Virus record (IMG/VR): IMGVR_UViG_3300031841_004925
Location: 1 to 26,394 of that record
DNA length: 26,394 nucleotides
Strand: one strand, 5' to 3'
DNA from: a virus
Part shown: in pieces, positions 1,940-25,670 of the stretch
Layout: each line of letters begins with the position of its first letter
How positions within the stretch are numbered: position 1 is the first letter of the stretch
The notes under the pieces: generated by a model
What the model saw: the letters and a program-made list of their open reading frames with translations, nothing else
Told to the model about the DNA's origin: nothing
The model's database searches: none
Position numbers and translations under genes: made by a program

Positions 1940-3028
1940 TTACGGCTGTATTGGTGGAGGTGCTTGGAATAAATCATCAAGTGAATAGCGTTCAACAACT
2001 GTGACAAAAACGTAATCCGGTTTCCATTCTTGAATTAACTGTTCGAGCGCTTGTGTACCTAAAAGCTTACTCCAGTTTTGCTTTAAGATGTGCCCAAAGG
2101 TAGCTGTCATATAAGGAGCTAAAGCGTTCCCGTATGAATCACTTAACCATAGTACTTTTTTGTTATTGAGTGCATTTGGGGTTGTGATTAAGTACAGGTC
2201 ATCCCTATTCCCATATAATGGTGCTGTGCCTTTGTATACCACCGAATCTTTGTTGTAATCACTTATGATATGACTTAACTGTAAATTGTTTGCTTCTGTT
2301 ATTGGATTAGGATCAGAATATAGACTGCCAACTCGGAGAAATCTTGTAAGGTCACCATGGACATATGAATCATTCCTTATGACATTACTCCAATTAAGAG
2401 GAGGTAAAACTAGGCTTTCATTATTAATTCGTAACATAAACTCATTGAAAGCAACTCCCGCGCCGTAATAATTCCAATGCGTGTCCGTCTTGTAGTATAA
2501 ATCTTGAGTATTTATAACGTCAGATATTGTCTGCCTGACGTCGATGTAGATTTCACTGTCATACAGCGTTTGCGATATCGATTCGTTACTGGTTTTTGCC
2601 CATAGAGGTAAATATTCGTTGTAAATTGTACTTTTATTTGGCCCGACTAATATTTTATAGTCTTTTACGCCGTTCTTTTGAAAGTACTTTTCCCAGAGTA
2701 TCTGTGATTCTATGATTGCTTCTGAGCGCTCCTGAACTTCTACAGTCTGAAAACCTGCACGGTAAGCTGAAATTGTTTTTTGGTGGTCATCGCCTAAAAA
2801 GAACCACCCATCTTTTCCAACAACAACGGAGTTAGGTTTGATGCTTATCCCTAGAGGAACTAAATATGGGTTTATTTTTCCTTCAATAACATCAAGTGAA
2901 TAAAGGAACTTTGTGTTAGTAATATTTTCCTTTGTAAACCCACCTGAATAAATATTCACAATCGGCAGTATTGATAAAATAACACTGATTAATAAGAAAA
3001 ATATTTTAATATTGGCTCTATTGTTCAA
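1940..3028 (-). CDS. AlgJ/AlgX-like SGNH O-acetyltransferase partner
   Basis: A 362-residue membrane-anchored protein resembling the SGNH domain of AlgJ/AlgX, which act in the periplasm with an MBOAT protein to O-acetylate a polysaccharide. An N-terminal hydrophobic anchor spans about residues 8-26. GKDGWFFLG (71-79) is typical of the start of the AlgX catalytic domain. The catalytic Asp-His pair is in DTHW (D182, H184), and WLSDSYG supplies the probable nucleophile S298. It starts 14 bases after the MBOAT gene and is surely in the same operon. The stretch is visibly AT-richer than the phage structural genes, which fits acquired cargo. The acceptor (lipopolysaccharide, capsule or exopolysaccharide) cannot be told from sequence. 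Confidence 0.8.
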   Translation of the reverse strand: MNNRANIKIFFLLISVILSILPIVNIYSGGFTKENITNTKFLYSLDVIEGKINPYLVPLGISIKPNSVVVGKDGWFFLGDDHQKTISAYRAGFQTVEVQERSEAIIESQILWEKYFQKNGVKDYKILVGPNKSTIYNEYLPLWAKTSNESISQTLYDSEIYIDVRQTISDVINTQDLYYKTDTHWNYYGAGVAFNEFMLRINNESLVLPPLNWSNVIRNDSYVHGDLTRFLRVGSLYSDPNPITEANNLQLSHIISDYNKDSVVYKGTAPLYGNRDDLYLITTPNALNNKKVLWLSDSYGNALAPYMTATFGHILKQNWSKLLGTQALEQLIQEWKPDYVFVTVVERYSLDDLFQAPPPIQP

Positions 3029-3042
3029 TTAGATTCTCCTTA

Positions 3043-4506
3043 TTAAAAGTTAAAATATAGAAACACACTTGAAGATGAGCTTCTGATAATGTAAATGGAT
3101 ACTGCAAACAAAAAGGCCGCTGAAATCATTTTTCCTATCCCAACTTCTCTTTGTATCAATTCATATGAATTAGTTTTAGACAATAGATAAAAAGAAAAAG
3201 AGATGGCAGAGAATGGGATTGCATTTACGGCTACCATATTAGGAAGAATACCAAATAGAAGGTCAAAATTAGTACCAATCCATGACAATTTGTTAGAAGC
3301 TATTCCCTCTATTGGTTTATCGATTAGATTGAGCCCGCTCATGCTAGATAATAGGTTTACGGCGGTTGTAAGGTTTTCCGCCCTAAAAAAGACCCATGTC
3401 ATATTGATGAATATAAACGTTGTCAGCCAAGCTAACCATGTTGGCATGTTTCCGCCAACAGATTTCCACATTCTGTGCAATACGAGAGCCATGCCATGTA
3501 ACGCTCCCCAGATAACGAACATCCAGCTAGCACCATGCCATAGCCCACCAATTAGAAATGTAATGAAAAGGTTGCTGTAAGTCGTTAGTTCTTTTTTCTT
3601 ACTCCCACCAAGAGGAATGTAAATGTAATCCCTAAGGAACCTTCCTAATGTTATATGCCATCTACGCCAAAAGTCTTGGATATCTAGTGATTTATAAGGC
3701 GAGTTAAAGTTGATTGGTAGCTTTATGTTGAATAGCAACGCAGCGCCCATCGCCATGTCGCAGTAACCACTGAAATCAAAATACAACTGAAAAGAGTAGC
3801 TCAAGCTCGTTAGCCAAGCTTCGTAGAATGATAATGTGGCGGAGTTATAGAATCCTGCATCAGCCCATATAGAAAATGTATCAGCTATGGCAATTTTCTT
3901 AAACAAGCCGATAGAAAATATAAATAGACCAAGCGAGATATTTTTGCTTCTAGGAGCAAGATTCCATTTTGAATTAAATTGCGGCATCATTTCTTTATGA
4001 TGAACTATCGGGCCCGCAATTAATTGTGGAAAAAAAGTCACAAATAACGAGTAGTTCAAGAGGTCATATTCTTTAGTTTCTTTTCTGTAGCTGTCAACTA
4101 AGTACGCTATTTGCTGAAATGTGAAAAAACTAATAGCGAGTGGAAGAGCAATGTTAGTATTTTCAAATGGCTGGGATAATAATAAATTCACATTCCCAAT
4201 GATAAAGTTGGTGTACTTAAAGTAGCCAAGTAAAGCTATGTTTGTTATCACTCCAAAAGCCAAAAGAGACGATTTTTTAATGCCTTTATCTTTCTTGGTT
4301 AGATGACTTCCTAAAGCAAAATTGAATGCCAATGAACCGAGAATAATGGGAAGGTAGGAAGGCTCCCATCTAGCATAGAATATAAGACTAGCGACCACTA
4401 ACCACATCTTCGCGCAAGTATACAGTCGATACTTTGCTAGTATGAAATATATACAAAAGCAGATGGGTAAAAAGATGAATATGAAATTTATAGAACTGAA
4501 TAGCAT
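3043..4506 (-). CDS. AlgI-like MBOAT O-acyltransferase
   Basis: A 487-residue polytopic inner-membrane protein of the MBOAT family, AlgI/DltB/PatA type. It is predicted to pass acetyl groups across the membrane to its SGNH partner encoded directly downstream. Family signatures seen: LIFYARWEP in the N-terminal region, FPQLIAGPIVHH (159-170), FWRRWHITLGRFLRDYIYIP (279-298) and GGLWHGASWMFVIWGALHG (320-338), which carries the conserved histidines H324 and H338. The start MLFSSINFIF matches the usual AlgI-type beginning although no good ribosome binding site precedes it. Length is normal for the family. Located between ogr and the baseplate operon and on the opposite strand, it looks like a cargo gene changing surface polysaccharide during lysogeny. 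Confidence 0.87.
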   Translation of the reverse strand: MLFSSINFIFIFLPICFCIYFILAKYRLYTCAKMWLVVASLIFYARWEPSYLPIILGSLAFNFALGSHLTKKDKGIKKSSLLAFGVITNIALLGYFKYTNFIIGNVNLLLSQPFENTNIALPLAISFFTFQQIAYLVDSYRKETKEYDLLNYSLFVTFFPQLIAGPIVHHKEMMPQFNSKWNLAPRSKNISLGLFIFSIGLFKKIAIADTFSIWADAGFYNSATLSFYEAWLTSLSYSFQLYFDFSGYCDMAMGAALLFNIKLPINFNSPYKSLDIQDFWRRWHITLGRFLRDYIYIPLGGSKKKELTTYSNLFITFLIGGLWHGASWMFVIWGALHGMALVLHRMWKSVGGNMPTWLAWLTTFIFINMTWVFFRAENLTTAVNLLSSMSGLNLIDKPIEGIASNKLSWIGTNFDLLFGILPNMVAVNAIPFSAISFSFYLLSKTNSYELIQREVGIGKMISAAFLFAVSIYIIRSSSSSVFLYFNF

Positions 4507-10565: not shown

Positions 10566-11122
10566 TGACTCAATATTATTACCAATACGATAAAGTAACC
10601 AGGGTTGTCATGCATAAGCCTATTTCTGCTTTCATTGGCTCCAAATTACCACAAGTTCCCCGCGATGCGCTGACTATAGAGCCGCTACGAAAAAAAGAAG
10701 GCTTTGTAGTAATAGCTTGTGAATTTGACGAACGTGGTAAGCCATTCCTGACTAAATACATCGAAGATCATCGTGGCGAAATCATTTATGACCAAACGAA
10801 TTGCAACAAATCTGAAACCGTTACCGAACTGGGTGAAATAAAAGAAGGTTGGACAGAGCTAAAACCTATTACTCAATTTGACGAGTGGATTAACAACGAT
10901 TGGGTAACCAACCAAAGTAATAAATACATCGCTGAATATAACCAAGTCGACAACGTTCGCCGTGGGCTATACGCTCAGATATGCGATCCCTTAATTGCTG
11001 AAGCCAACATCAAACGCTTACAAGGATTTGAAGATGATGCCCAAGCAATAGAAGCTCAAGTGTTAGCTGCCCGTAACAAAATCCAAACAGAAAATCCTTG
11101 GCCAACACCGCCTTCCAACTAA
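10565..11122 (+). CDS. Putative tail fibre assembly or accessory protein
   Basis: A 185-residue protein directly downstream of the fibre gene and coupled to it through TAATG, the usual place for a fibre chaperone (P2 gpG, Tfa). The N-terminal 90 residues are beta-rich with no motif I can name. The C-terminal part (RRGLYAQICDPLIAEANIKR, then a short helix and ENPWPTPP) resembles the C-terminal helix-rich segment seen in many fibre assembly and fibre-associated proteins. It is the last gene of the baseplate operon, followed at once by a strong terminator. The function is inferred mainly from position. Confidence 0.5.
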   Translation: MTQYYYQYDKVTRVVMHKPISAFIGSKLPQVPRDALTIEPLRKKEGFVVIACEFDERGKPFLTKYIEDHRGEIIYDQTNCNKSETVTELGEIKEGWTELKPITQFDEWINNDWVTNQSNKYIAEYNQVDNVRRGLYAQICDPLIAEANIKRLQGFEDDAQAIEAQVLAARNKIQTENPWPTPPSN

Positions 11123-21827: not shown

Positions 21828-23723
21828 ATGAAAATGAAACTGTCTGTTCTCATGGATATGAAAGATAAAACTTCAGCGGTTCTCAAAGGGATGAGTGGCG
21901 AGAGTGATTATTACGCCAAGTCTATCAAAAAGGTACAGAAGACACAGGCTGATGATTCTGCCGCAATGGGGATGATTGACTCGTTAAAAACGTCACGAAA
22001 AGCAATGGACAAGAACGCAATTGCGGTTGCTGCGGTCAGCGAAAAGCTTGATGAGTTAAAAGTAAAAGTAGCAGGCGTTGAATCCCCAAGCGCTGCGCTC
22101 ACGGAGAAAATTACAAAGCAGCAAGCTAAGCTGAGCAAACTGAACACTGAGCAAGAGGGGTATAAATCCCATTTAGAAAAGCTCGATACCCAGTTAAAAA
22201 AGACAGGGGTGAATACAGGGAACCTTGATGGTGAATACGACCGACTTAATCGAAGTTACAAGAAACACGGTAAGGAAATAGGCAGGCTCAGTAAGCGTTA
22301 TACCACCTTACAAAGAGTCATGAGCCCGATTCAAAAGCTGAGCCGTTCAATCAAATTTCCAAAGGTCGGCGCTGCAGCGGCAGGAAAAGGCGCCGCGCTG
22401 TTAAGTGGTTTGAGCTTTGCTGGGTTAGTGACGCAAGTGAATGGTGCTGCAGGTGAAATGGACAACCTGGCAAAGACATCAGCCAACCTAAAATTACCTA
22501 TTGAAGAACTTCAAGCCATGCAATCCCAAGCTGAACATGCCGGGGTAAGTTCTGATGCCCTGTCTAACTCAATGCTTCGCTTTACCAAGCGACTTGGTGT
22601 GTTGCAACAAACGGGCTCAGGTGCGTTAGGCTCTTACCTCAAGATGAGTGAGAACGCGCTGCATAAAGGCTTACAGGGCGCGAAAGACACTAAGCAGGCT
22701 TATGAAATGCTCCTTGAAGAGTTCTCTCAACTTGAAACGCCGCAAGAGCAAATGGCCTTTGCCGATGCAGCCTTTGGCCAAGACGGTCGCAAAATGTTGA
22801 TCATGCTCAGAGAAGGAACACAGGGGTTAACGGCGGCGAGAAAAGAACTCAACGCATTGGGTGGCGGTGCGACTGCAGAAGATGCGGCGAAAGCTGAAGC
22901 TTACAACGATGCTCTGCAAAAAATCGAAGAAAGCGTTCGCTCTATGAAGTTTGCAGCACTTGCACCCATCATGGAAAAAGCAACCAAAGCATTCACCCAG
23001 TTTTCCGAGAAGTTTAAGAACGCAGCTTGGCGAACCGACTTCATCGAAAAGCTCATTCAAACCGTAGACGGTCTTTATCAAGGCTTTGAACTGCTAGGTA
23101 AAGGGCTTATTTGGTTAACGCAAAACTTCAAAGGGATTCTCGCGACTGTGGCTATCTTAAAAGTGGCGTTGATTGCTTTGAATGCGGCGGTTCTGGCAAA
23201 CCCCATCGGGCTCATGGTGGCTGCTGTTGCTGCTGCAGTAATCGCGATTACTTATTTAATCGATAAGTTCATTGGTTTAGACAAAGTCATTAAATGGATT
23301 GGTGACGGCATTGGTTGGTTGTGGGATAAATTCAAAGCACTGATCAACAAGTTGCCAGATGCACTCATCCCCGATGGATGGAAAATTCAAACCGATGAAG
23401 CTGGCCAAGAAGTCGATAACTTAGCCGCTAAACTCAACCTTATTGAAGACAAGAGCGCGACGCTTGGCATTACGACCAATGAAACCCAAAACCGAACTGA
23501 GCGAACCCAAACCGAGCAAGGTTACCACGCTTATCAAACTGGAGGGATTCAGCCTATTAAGCAAAGCGCATCTTATAGCCCACTGGGCAACCAAACCATC
23601 AAAAGTAAATCTGAAGTGTCATTGACCATCAAATCAGATAAGCCCGTTGCGATTGAGAAAGCGCAAAGTGAAAAAGGCACCGACTTAAATTTGGATGTGG
23701 GGAATATGGCGACGAGTTTTTAA
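21828..23723 (+). CDS. Tail tape measure protein
   Basis: A 631-residue protein that sets tail length and passes into the host membrane on infection. The N-terminal 180 residues are coiled coil (KSIKKVQKTQADD, QEGYKSHLEKLDTQLKKTG). A PF10145-like region with SFAGLVTQVNGAAGEMDNLA, MLRFTKRLGVLQQTGSG and FADAAFGQDGRKMLIML is typical of minor tail proteins. Hydrophobic stretches at about 435-482 are probable membrane segments. Its size predicts a tail of roughly 90-100 nm if about 1.5 angstrom per residue holds. The genes that normally follow it (DNA circulation, hub) are at the far left of the window. Confidence 0.9.
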   Translation: MKMKLSVLMDMKDKTSAVLKGMSGESDYYAKSIKKVQKTQADDSAAMGMIDSLKTSRKAMDKNAIAVAAVSEKLDELKVKVAGVESPSAALTEKITKQQAKLSKLNTEQEGYKSHLEKLDTQLKKTGVNTGNLDGEYDRLNRSYKKHGKEIGRLSKRYTTLQRVMSPIQKLSRSIKFPKVGAAAAGKGAALLSGLSFAGLVTQVNGAAGEMDNLAKTSANLKLPIEELQAMQSQAEHAGVSSDALSNSMLRFTKRLGVLQQTGSGALGSYLKMSENALHKGLQGAKDTKQAYEMLLEEFSQLETPQEQMAFADAAFGQDGRKMLIMLREGTQGLTAARKELNALGGGATAEDAAKAEAYNDALQKIEESVRSMKFAALAPIMEKATKAFTQFSEKFKNAAWRTDFIEKLIQTVDGLYQGFELLGKGLIWLTQNFKGILATVAILKVALIALNAAVLANPIGLMVAAVAAAVIAITYLIDKFIGLDKVIKWIGDGIGWLWDKFKALINKLPDALIPDGWKIQTDEAGQEVDNLAAKLNLIEDKSATLGITTNETQNRTERTQTEQGYHAYQTGGIQPIKQSASYSPLGNQTIKSKSEVSLTIKSDKPVAIEKAQSEKGTDLNLDVGNMATSF

Positions 23724-23750
23724 ATTATTCATACCCAGCCCTTAAAAATC

Positions 23751-23780
23751 AAAAAAGCCGCCATCAAGACTCAAGGCGGC
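23751..23780 (-). terminator. Terminator of the TIR-like gene
   Basis: On the minus strand GCCGCC (23780-23775), a twelve-base loop and GGCGGC (23762-23757) are followed by six T (23756-23751). It ends the minus-strand gene. On the plus strand it may also slow transcription leaving the tape measure gene, though without a T-run. Confidence 0.82.
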
Positions 23781-23822
23781 GACTTAGTTTAACTTTGGGT
23801 AATTAAAAGAGTCTGAAAGATC

Positions 23823-24683
23823 TTAAATCGGTGCAAAACTGATAACGGACACACTTTTCGTGGATGGATGTTTCAGGACCATTTCATACGCCGAATCAAT
23901 TGATGTAAATTCGGGCTGACGCACAAAAAAACTAGACCCCAATGGTTCAACGGTTATATCTAACATAGCAGAGATCTCAACTTTAACTTCCTGTATTACA
24001 TCTTCATTTTCACTACTAATGTCAAACTTTACTCCTCTACGTATCTTTGAGCCTTTTTTCGTACGGTTACTGACTTCATTCACCATATATGAATTTGAAA
24101 TCATTGATTCTAGCTTATCCATCTTCCCCAAAAGGTACTTACCAAGCTGACCATCAACATTTTCATTAGCCGCTATTTCTTTCATTACATTATGTGTAAT
24201 AGCTCTATAAACTGGGTTATCAGGTTCTTCATCATTAAGAGCTTCTACAGCTAGAGTCTGAAGGCGGTCTTTTAACACAACAACACCTGCCATATCATTT
24301 TTATAGAAAATCGTACGCTCATCGGAGATATCGAACGGTAGTCTTGTACCGTCAACTGCGAGCGAAATCACAGGCTTTCGAGCACAATGGCGTAAGCCAA
24401 GTTCATACATAACATTAGGGTTCAATTCAGAAAGATTCGCTATAACCAATTCATCGTTAAGTACGTGCTCGATGACTTGTGTTGTAATTGAACCAGGGGT
24501 ATCTATTCGGTGTGCAACAACAACCTCCAAACCTAAAGCCTTACAAACAGGTTCAATTACCGCATCGATGATTCCGTCAGCGTGTCTTCGCGTATCTGAG
24601 TTATCAGCACCAATAGGCGTTACAATAAAGCACTTTTTGACTTTTTGTACTTGTTCTTCTTTCTTAGATTCAGCCTTTGCCAT
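23823..24683 (-). CDS. TIR-like / nucleoside deoxyribosyltransferase-like protein, candidate antiphage defence
   Basis: A 286-residue protein with a Rossmann-like N-terminal domain. CFIVTPIG (residues 18-25) is the first strand. RRHADGIIDAVIEPV, VVVAHRIDTPGSITTQVI and LVIANLSELNPNVMYELGL follow, where E94 is in the position of the catalytic glutamate of TIR NADases and nucleoside 2-deoxyribosyltransferases. KPVISLAVDGTRLPFD completes this domain. Residues from about 205 form a separate, acidic, beta-rich domain that may sense a ligand or phage protein. It has its own strand, promoter and terminator at the end of the prophage, where P2-type phages carry defence cargo. The fold assignment is fairly good; NAD cleavage and defence are inference. 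A plain metabolic role is the alternative. Confidence 0.68.
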   Translation of the reverse strand: MAKAESKKEEQVQKVKKCFIVTPIGADNSDTRRHADGIIDAVIEPVCKALGLEVVVAHRIDTPGSITTQVIEHVLNDELVIANLSELNPNVMYELGLRHCARKPVISLAVDGTRLPFDISDERTIFYKNDMAGVVVLKDRLQTLAVEALNDEEPDNPVYRAITHNVMKEIAANENVDGQLGKYLLGKMDKLESMISNSYMVNEVSNRTKKGSKIRRGVKFDISSENEDVIQEVKVEISAMLDITVEPLGSSFFVRQPEFTSIDSAYEMVLKHPSTKSVSVISFAPI

Positions 24684-24713
24684 TGCAATAATTCCATGAT
24701 TGTTTTCCTATGT

Positions 24714-24743
24714 TTCATATGGGGTTAACCTAAGCTTATTCAA
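24714..24743 (-). promoter_or_regulatory. Candidate promoter of the TIR-like gene
   Basis: On the minus strand TTGAAT (24743-24738) and TATGAA (24719-24714) are 18 bases apart, about 30 bases before the ATG at 24683. Both boxes are four-of-six matches, giving a modest constitutive promoter in keeping with expression in the lysogen. Confidence 0.4.
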
Positions 24744-24796
24744 GAGCTTGTGCGCTATAAAGCTAGATTAAATGCCATAAAGTGAGATACACCCCA

Positions 24797-24826: not shown

Positions 24827-24857
24827 ACCTATGCACTGGCAAAATCCAGTGTCGGGC

Positions 24858-24881
24858 GTAGGAACCCGTTTAGACATAAGG
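24858..24881 (+). promoter_or_regulatory. First C4 target copy (b1/a1-like) in the leader
   Basis: GTAGGAA at 24858-24864 (loop of a CGGG/CCCG hairpin) and GACATAAGG at 24873-24881 are complementary to C4 segments TTCCTAC (25027-25033) and CCTTGTGTC (25012-25020), the second with one G-U pair. They repeat the pair found before the antirepressor start, as the two target copies flank c4 in phage P1. Confidence 0.55.
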
Positions 24882-24891
24882 CGCATAGACG

Positions 24892-24913
24892 CCAGCTTTT
24901 TGCTGGTTTTTTT
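24892..24913 (+). terminator. Terminator or attenuator in the C4 leader
   Basis: CCAGC (24892-24896), loop TTTTT, GCTGG (24902-24906), then seven T. A competing stem GGCG (24880-24883) with CGCC (24890-24893) overlaps its left arm, so the two cannot form together. This suggests attenuation before the C4 RNA and antirepressor gene. Confidence 0.72.
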
Positions 24914-24954
24914 ATGTGTGGCTTCGGCACACTTGCACATAGTCGTTTCGTATA

Positions 24955-25036
24955 GAAACCGTACTATCTGAATTATGGTGGGCTGGGCAAGGCAGCTTCG
25001 GCTGGCCGTATCCTTGTGTCGCGGTATTCCTACCCT
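24955..25036 (+). ncRNA. c4: C4 antisense RNA (antirepressor control)
   Basis: The stretch has the form of C4 RNAs of P1-like and many other phages: GAATTATGGTGGGCTGGGC, a CAGC-TTCG-GCTG hairpin (24993-25004), CCGTATCCTTGTGTCGCGG and ATTCCTACCC. Its TCCTTGTGTC (25011-25020) is perfectly complementary to 25090-25099, which covers most of the ribosome binding site of the downstream BRO gene. TTCCTAC (25027-25033) pairs with GTAGGAA at 25059-25065. In P1, C4 silences ant this way. The boundaries are approximate. Identification is from remembered family sequence plus the visible complementarity. Confidence 0.72.
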
Positions 25037-25058
25037 TGTTCAGTTCACCACCCGAAGC

Positions 25059-25101
25059 GTAGGAACTCCGAGTGGTGATTTAAAATCATGACACAAGGAG
25101 G
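25059..25101 (+). promoter_or_regulatory. C4 target site and ribosome binding site of the antirepressor
   Basis: GTAGGAA (25059-25065) and GACACAAGGA (25090-25099) are the b2 and a2 targets of the C4 RNA; the latter overlaps AAGGAGG (25095-25101), six bases before the ATG. CACCAC (25046-25051) can pair with GTGGTG (25072-25077), presenting GTAGGAA in a loop. Pairing with C4 would block translation. Confidence 0.65.
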
Positions 25102-25106
25102 CTATC

Positions 25107-25670
25107 ATGCCGACATCTTCCCTTTCTTTCCAAAATACTCATTTCGAAATTATTGAACAAAGTAATCAACTTTGGCTAACTGCCACCGATATAGCTAAAG
25201 CTCTTGGCTACCGAAAGCGAGATGCTGTAACTCAGATTTTCGAACGAAATTCTGATGAGTTCACAGGTCAAATGACTGAGACACTCAGAATGAGTGCCTC
25301 AGGTAATTACCAAAAAACAGTACGTATATTCTCCCTTCGTGGTGCGCACTTAATCGCTATGTTTAGCCGAACCTCTGCTGCCAAAGAATTCCGCAAATGG
25401 GTATTGGACGTATTAGATCGAGAAATACAAAAGCCACAAAACAATCAAAACCCCACCCTACTCAACAACGCCAAAAGAGCATGCGAACGCGTAAGCCAGT
25501 GCGAAAACCAAAGCTATAACGAGTTACTCGCACTCAAAGAAACCTTCGCTCAGCTCGAACACTCTTCTCGCATTGCCCAAAACCAAATCAACGACCTATT
25601 AACCAGCCATCACTCTAAGCGTGACCATATCGCTCATATCTATTTAGCGCACCAGGTAATGGTTGTGTAA
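25107..25670 (+). CDS. BRO-N domain antirepressor (Ant-like)
   Basis: A 187-residue protein. Residues 8-112 form a BRO-N domain: FEIIEQSNQLWLTATDIAKA, LGYRKRDAVTQIFERN, and the hallmark FSLRGAHLIAMFSRTSAAKE followed by FRKWVLDVLDREI. The rest is a helical, possibly coiled-coil tail. Proteins of this kind next to C4 RNAs (P1 Ant) bind the phage repressor and trigger or maintain lytic growth. It is preceded by a C4 RNA complementary to its ribosome binding site and followed by a strong hairpin. Its natural target would be the prophage repressor, which lies outside the window. The BRO-N domain is certain; the antirepressor role is inferred from family and context. Confidence 0.85.
   Translation: MPTSSLSFQNTHFEIIEQSNQLWLTATDIAKALGYRKRDAVTQIFERNSDEFTGQMTETLRMSASGNYQKTVRIFSLRGAHLIAMFSRTSAAKEFRKWVLDVLDREIQKPQNNQNPTLLNNAKRACERVSQCENQSYNELLALKETFAQLEHSSRIAQNQINDLLTSHHSKRDHIAHIYLAHQVMVV

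Follow-up and report, generated by a model that had tools for sequence, protein, structure and literature searches.

A candidate single-protein anti-phage system with a TIR/NDT-like catalytic domain and a hypervariable C-terminal domain in a P2-related Vibrio prophage

Described systems and the TIR-like gene

Several described systems resemble the product of the TIR-like gene analyzed here. The TIR domains of the Cap12/Pycsar group (PF10137, CAP12-PCTIR_TIR) carry an NVxxE catalytic motif with a downstream LPxD, and deoxyribosyltransferases of the NDT (PF05014) and DNPH1 (Rcl) types present the same fold, a catalytic Glu, and an IANLT-like strand. CapRel, a fused toxSAS toxin-antitoxin, binds phage proteins through its least conserved part, the C-terminal region, which also determines specificity (PMC9712102). 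TIR proteins at variable cargo sites of P2-type elements are represented by the TIR-NLR and the AC1 TIR + TM system of P4/P2 hotspots (PMC9122126), and TIR-fold genes of temperate phages by the Firmicute phage TIR domains with SLATT partners (Javan281 and SN10; PMC9503650). The wider CFVIMPFG superfamily combines a homologous N-terminal domain (profile-profile E 8.6e-43) with TPR ('TRAFs-binding') C-termini.

The protein encoded at our locus (P0001, 286 aa) differs from each of these systems. It shares both motifs with the Cap12/Pycsar TIR domains but falls below Pfam detection (no PF10137 match), has a C-terminal domain of another kind, and carries no recognizable cyclic-nucleotide receptor domain; no CD-NTase or Pyc cyclase was found near the gene, the nearby ORFs being phage genes only. 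From the NDT and DNPH1 enzymes it is set apart by the replacement of the nucleobase Asp and by an extra linker and C-terminal domain. Its likeness to CapRel lies in a single prophage-borne gene with a conserved N-terminal enzyme and a least conserved C-terminal part; however, CapRel's own enzyme is a pyrophosphokinase and its receptor a pseudo-zinc-finger; the two are not homologous and are alike only in the inferred way of working. The TIR-NLR has STAND and TPR parts and AC1 has TM partners, whereas P0001 has neither and occupies another genome position. The 41 phage records retrieved with the SM1 family member do not include Javan281 or SN10, and P0001 has no SLATT partner. In contrast to P0001, plasmid-annotated members of the CFVIMPFG superfamily bear TPR-type C-terminal parts.

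The window, i.e., the whole stretch of DNA that was analyzed, is a complete IMG/VR record of 26,394 bases. It represents a P2-related Vibrio prophage: Vibrio phage 10N.237.312.G08_PE003 (PQ189295) aligns with 77% of its length at 93%, and the annotated genes of that phage include P2-like homologues for the terminase, capsid, baseplate, and tape measure. The features discussed below are the following:

21828..23723, plus strand: tape-measure gene, a conserved flank of the cargo site (orthologue annotated TMP in PQ189295; 94.5% DNA identity)
23712..24795, no strand: exchangeable cargo segment with flanks 94-95% identical (unrelated 458-aa gene in PQ189295, L064; other genes or empty elsewhere)
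23751..23780, minus strand: intrinsic terminator, GCCGCC-N12-GGCGGC then T6 (from the sequence; MFE -12.6 kcal/mol, z -2.1)
23823..24683, minus strand: coding sequence of P0001, 286 aa, with a TIR/NDT-like catalytic domain, a helical linker, and a hypervariable C-terminal domain
23829..24035, minus strand: hypervariable ferredoxin-like C-terminal domain, residues 217-285 (beta-alpha-beta-beta-alpha-beta in two models; variability; no specific structural match)
24057..24215, minus strand: helical linker, residues 157-209, with helices 157-172 and 179-209 (AlphaFold/DSSP; break in DNA identity with sister prophage L002 at its end, ~204)
24234..24635, minus strand: catalytic domain, residues 17-150 (AlphaFold/DSSP; Foldseek to NDT, SPARTA TIR, DNPH1, and SARM1; invariant columns)
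24402-24404, minus strand: codon of E94
24833..24912, plus strand: isrK RNA, RF01394, divergent from the cargo gene (cmscan 63.6 bits, gathering 50)
24971..25055, plus strand: C4 antisense RNA, RF01695 (cmscan 66.3 bits, gathering 45)
25107..25670, plus strand: Bro-N antirepressor-like gene, HI_1422 type (PF02498 E 9e-14; 95-99% identical in sister prophages)

The first-pass annotation of this DNA had pointed to a candidate single-gene protein after the tape measure of a P2-type phage. The ORF proved to be intact, and we add its minus-strand orientation, which had been left unstated; the gene indeed stands directly past the tape-measure gene, between it and the Bro-N antirepressor-like gene, both on the plus strand. 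The further placement near an attachment end found no support; the gene is flanked by the tape-measure gene on one side and by an isrK-C4-antirepressor module on the other. The window record contains no int-cI arm, and in the closest relative, PQ189295, that arm lies at the opposite end of the record.

A promoter and a terminator of the gene's own had also been proposed. The terminator was recovered as a hairpin 3' of the stop codon (stem 23757-23762/23775-23780, followed by T6), which a simple terminator scanner missed because its loop is 12 nt long. In contrast to this result, a consensus scan gave no sigma-70-like candidate ahead of the gene, nor any in the region that exceeded chance, which leaves the promoter claim to the gene's solitary place on the opposite strand. 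A short ORF (24697-24623, minus strand) overlaps the start of the TIR-like gene in another frame; its ATG at 24697 follows an AGGA by 9 nt, and this stretch is conserved in the related prophages L002 and L003. Since no Shine-Dalgarno sequence is well placed for the ATG of the TIR-like gene itself, the start assignment, or a regulatory upstream ORF, merits attention.

Catalytic domain and family of the TIR-like protein

The AlphaFold model of P0001 (mean pLDDT 85.5) contains a Rossmann-like domain at residues 17-150, with pLDDT of about 90 or more across most of this range and 79 in the lowest block. Foldseek searches against the PDB with this model retrieved NDT (E 4e-6), SPARTA TIR-APAZ (9e-6), DNPH1 (4.5e-5; TMt 0.66-0.75), and the SARM1 TIR domain (4e-4), as well as the CMP N-glycosidase BcmB. 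With E-values for NDT, SPARTA TIR, DNPH1, and SARM1 ranging from 4e-6 to 6e-4, the N-terminal domain has the TIR/NDT (TIR-DrHyd-SLOG) Rossmannoid fold, in agreement with the earlier proposal. Residue E94, which had been singled out as a TIR/NDT-type glutamate, lies in the helix after the central strand, aligns with the catalytic Glu of Rcl and NDT, and does not vary among the 45 relatives aligned.

An alignment of 48 family members is well conserved over residues 16-200 and has 27 invariant columns (26 besides M1), including N90, Y93, E94, R98, H99, the LPFD stretch, D130, N156, and P157. The invariant residues N90-V91..E94 (NVxxE) and L115-P116-F117-D118 (LPxD) recur as the same motifs in most of the PF10137 domains compared. 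In hhalign comparisons with profiles built from domains retrieved by genome search, the closest profile by E-value was NDT rather than TIR (1.9e-8 over 70 columns), followed by the Cap12/Pycsar TIR profile PF10137 (2.7e-6 over 121 columns) and TIR_2 (7e-4). Base binding in NDT and DNPH1 requires a nucleobase-contacting Asp, D69 in rat Rcl. This position aligns with V70 of P0001 and is occupied by Val in 35, Ile in 8, and Leu in 2 of 45 relatives, which argues against an ordinary metabolic NDT; of the conserved nucleoside-binding residues that the first-pass annotation had associated with a metabolic deoxyribosyltransferase, this Asp is thus not retained. By the Foldseek and profile comparisons, the family is a bridge between NDT and the Cap12/Pycsar-type TIRs, and sequence alone does not reveal its substrate. 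As candidate substrate we favor NAD+, since the family carries the motifs of TIR NADases; a NADase activity is predicted by analogy with TIR relatives only.

The searches with P0001 returned zero matches in Pfam (E up to 10) and NCBIfam, and significant matches to PHROG 10872 (E 3e-61) and PHROG 3634 (E 2e-49), both annotated as function unknown. The PADLOC model of a CBASS TIR effector, PDLC00733, was matched by P0001 with E 4e-7 at positions 242-356 of 388 only, a partial coverage that falls short of a whole-model match; the same model was matched by 48 of 48 family members, and PF05014 by 18 of 48 (best 1.4e-5). Relatives were found at 35 loci in viral contigs and at 27 loci in genomes of Pseudomonadota, Bacteroidota, Bacillota, and others, as well as in 52 phage records and 67 plasmids. 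The family, which has neither a name nor a Pfam model, is carried by temperate phages and by bacteria of several phyla. A search of the open-licence literature, which is not searchable by sequence, found no publication describing it, and blastn of E. coli genomes with the Kosakonia member returned nothing.

The ORF calls in these locus surveys are mechanical. No constant partner gene was observed across the 60 loci examined with this crude ORF calling, and a two-gene system was dropped from consideration for that reason. Family members in other phages adjoin an integrase, antiterminator-like, or terminase gene. The relatives from phages of Streptococcus and Staphylococcus are also oriented against their neighbors, and they are ~219 aa long with little or no C-terminal domain, so this domain is not universal in the family. 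Broken reading frames of the family gene were noticed in two genomic copies, in Pseudomonas fluorescens HKI0770 and a Longimicrobiaceae MAG (L062 and L063).

Hypervariable C-terminal domain

When modelled separately from the rest of P0001, the C-terminal domain retained its fold (pLDDT 82); the fold models cover P0001 alone. Foldseek searches with the separate domain produced generic ferredoxin-like folds only (best E 0.011), which upholds the earlier statement that this domain has no assignable family. In the 30 member pairs whose enzyme domains share at least 80% identity, median identity was 85% for one half of that domain and 86% for the other, whereas the median for the C-terminal domain was 26%, compared with 22±5% for shuffled sequences; the alignments of this domain are unreliable because it is so variable.

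The comparison with L002, a sister prophage carrying the gene at the same site, located the onset of the variability. DNA identity is 93-100% (about 96%) up to residue ~204, drops to 59-68% (about 62%) through the gene end and the terminator, and returns beyond the terminator to 80% and then to about 95% in the tape measure. At the protein level, the enzyme domains are 99% and the C-terminal domains 46% identical. Across residue ~204, dS rises from 0.15 to 0.97, a jump that is not expected from amino-acid selection alone and is most simply explained by exchange with a diverged allele. The C-terminal domain thus appears to have been swapped as a unit between sister prophages rather than to have changed gradually. 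The same domain was not found on other genes in viral contigs, and hence no donor of the exchanged domain was obtained.

In the pair L004/L009, in which both parts have diverged together, dN/dS is about 0.06 for the enzyme part and 0.33 for the C-terminal domain; judged by these ratios, the evolution of this domain is fast, yet constrained and below neutrality. Such variability is as expected for a part that would recognize phages. Alternatively, it could reflect loose constraint or a role in oligomerization.

Cargo site, proposed function, and alternatives

Prophages retrieved via the tape-measure gene show what else occupies the site between the tape measure and the antirepressor. The TIR-like family is present there in the window, L002/L076, and L003/L080; the 458-aa gene of PQ189295 is found also in L082, a RelA/SpoT-domain protein similar to the PADLOC candidate PDC-S33 in L070, a DUF4062 protein in L079, and genes without assigned function in L075, L081, L083, and L085. 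The site is empty in L071, L077, and L088, and AbiQ/ToxN fills it in L093, a less closely related phage whose tape measure is 42% identical. Related prophages thus contain at least seven other cargos, or none, at a high-turnover site with defence genes; the counts of cargo types are minimal because several contigs end inside the site, and most neighbors in sister prophages carry no known function. This comparison bears out the variable cargo site that had been suspected, and shows that some related prophages lack the TIR-like gene, which is replaced or absent in sisters. The RelA/SpoT-domain protein (L070 7009-8127, minus strand, 373 aa) is possibly a CapRel or toxSAS relative. In K139-like Vibrio phages, the cI-integrase interval is a defence hotspot (Rousset et al., PMC9122126), and PQ189295 carries genes labelled Rst_3HP by the depositors between its integrase and repressor. 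The tape-measure/antirepressor site would be a second hotspot in this Vibrio phage group.

The isrK-C4-Bro-N module (window 24833-25670) occurs at several different positions in Vibrio P2-like phages. The isrK-C4-antirepressor stretch adjoins PD-T4-9 A, B, and C in PQ189358 (depositors' annotation) and a 379-aa protein in PQ189285, and V. cholerae phage O395 has it as well. The idea that isrK marks defence cargo in general was rejected: among 73 isrK sites in viral contigs, only 20 had an opposite-strand upstream gene, with few PADLOC matches among these. The cargo site next to isrK-C4-antirepressor modules may help to locate more defence genes in Vibrio phages.

A constant enzyme of an immune superfamily, a hypervariable and exchanged C-terminal domain, a single gene with no constant partner in the 60 loci, a cargo site in temperate phages, and counter-orientation together fit a self-contained sensor-effector, for which CapRel is the precedent. 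We slightly favor the reading that the TIR-like gene is a prophage-borne single-protein anti-phage (superinfection) system. In the model that we infer for its enzymatic activity, substrate, autoinhibition, trigger, and defence phenotype, the N-terminal TIR/NDT-like domain would be an N-glycosidase effector, most likely a NAD(P)+ glycohydrolase, although its substrate could possibly be a different nucleotide. The long helices of the linker, together with the ferredoxin-like C-terminal domain, would keep the enzyme inactive and would serve as a receptor for something made by an invading phage. Binding of this phage product would release or assemble the enzyme domain, which in its active state would destroy the cofactor and stop the infected cell.

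Several other functions were weighed against this proposal. A nucleotide-metabolism enzyme, i.e., an NDT/DNPH1-type deoxyribosyltransferase or a nucleotide hydrolase for phage salvage or modified-base chemistry, is suggested by the top Foldseek ranks of NDT and DNPH1, by the best profile-profile E-value of NDT, and by the PF05014 matches within the family. We consider it unlikely, since the nucleobase-contacting Asp is replaced in every relative aligned, the gene runs opposite to the phage genes and gives way to unrelated genes in sisters, the loci examined reveal no association with nucleotide genes, and such an enzyme would not need a hypervariable C-terminal domain; the loss of the Asp and the cargo context led us to reject it as the main reading. 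It is also improbable that the protein is a lysogenic-conversion or phage-regulatory factor acting, for example, with the isrK-C4-antirepressor module in the lysis-lysogeny decision. The module lies upstream of and divergent from the TIR-like gene with about 150 bp between, as would suit such a role, but it borders unrelated genes in sisters and the family stands beside other genes elsewhere, so the pairing is not specific.

The gene ThsA of Thoeris is encoded beside ThsB. A Thoeris-like signal generator, whose nucleotide or ADP-ribose messenger would switch on an effector encoded at another locus of the host or prophage, would make a toxic partner unnecessary, and TIR/DrHyd domains can be cyclases (PMC9503650); with no constant neighboring effector in the 60 examined loci, we rate this possibility as rather unlikely. 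A toxin-antitoxin gene within a gene, in which translation from an internal start would yield the variable C-terminal domain by itself to neutralize the full-length toxin, is modelled on the Rpn proteins, which combine a conserved enzyme domain with a small, highly variable C-terminal domain that is made separately as the antitoxin (PMC10327210). However, in-frame starts in the linker are preceded by a Shine-Dalgarno sequence of <=-5 kcal/mol in 6% of cases, compared with 8% in the N-terminal domain and 30% at true starts; internal starts thus show no Shine-Dalgarno enrichment, and an intragenic Rpn-type antitoxin was discarded as highly unlikely.

Extending the preferred reading, a prophage-borne sensor-effector, to the whole family, we tentatively suggest, with more doubt than for the single locus, a widespread family of one-protein phage sensors in which a TIR/NDT hybrid effector would be joined to a ferredoxin-like C-terminal receptor, diversified and swapped between temperate phages as a recognition cassette, each version for a different phage product. 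If this is true, prophages of several phyla hold a compact immune protein with a hypervariable recognition part on a constant enzyme. Natural pairs such as the window and L002 would then be ready-made domain swaps for asking what a TIR-type protein recognizes in a phage, a question that is open for most bacterial TIR systems.

Elsewhere in the window, at 1940-4506 on the minus strand, an AlgX-like SGNH protein (PF16822 2e-13) and an MBOAT acyltransferase (PF03062 3e-41) are encoded by a gene pair inserted between a replication gene and a circularization-protein gene, and missing in PQ189295. This is probably a second cargo, a surface-polysaccharide O-acetylation pair. The interval of PQ189295 (L064) that corresponds to its place in the window contains a full-length 5S rRNA match (10681-10796, plus strand; 89.8 bits).
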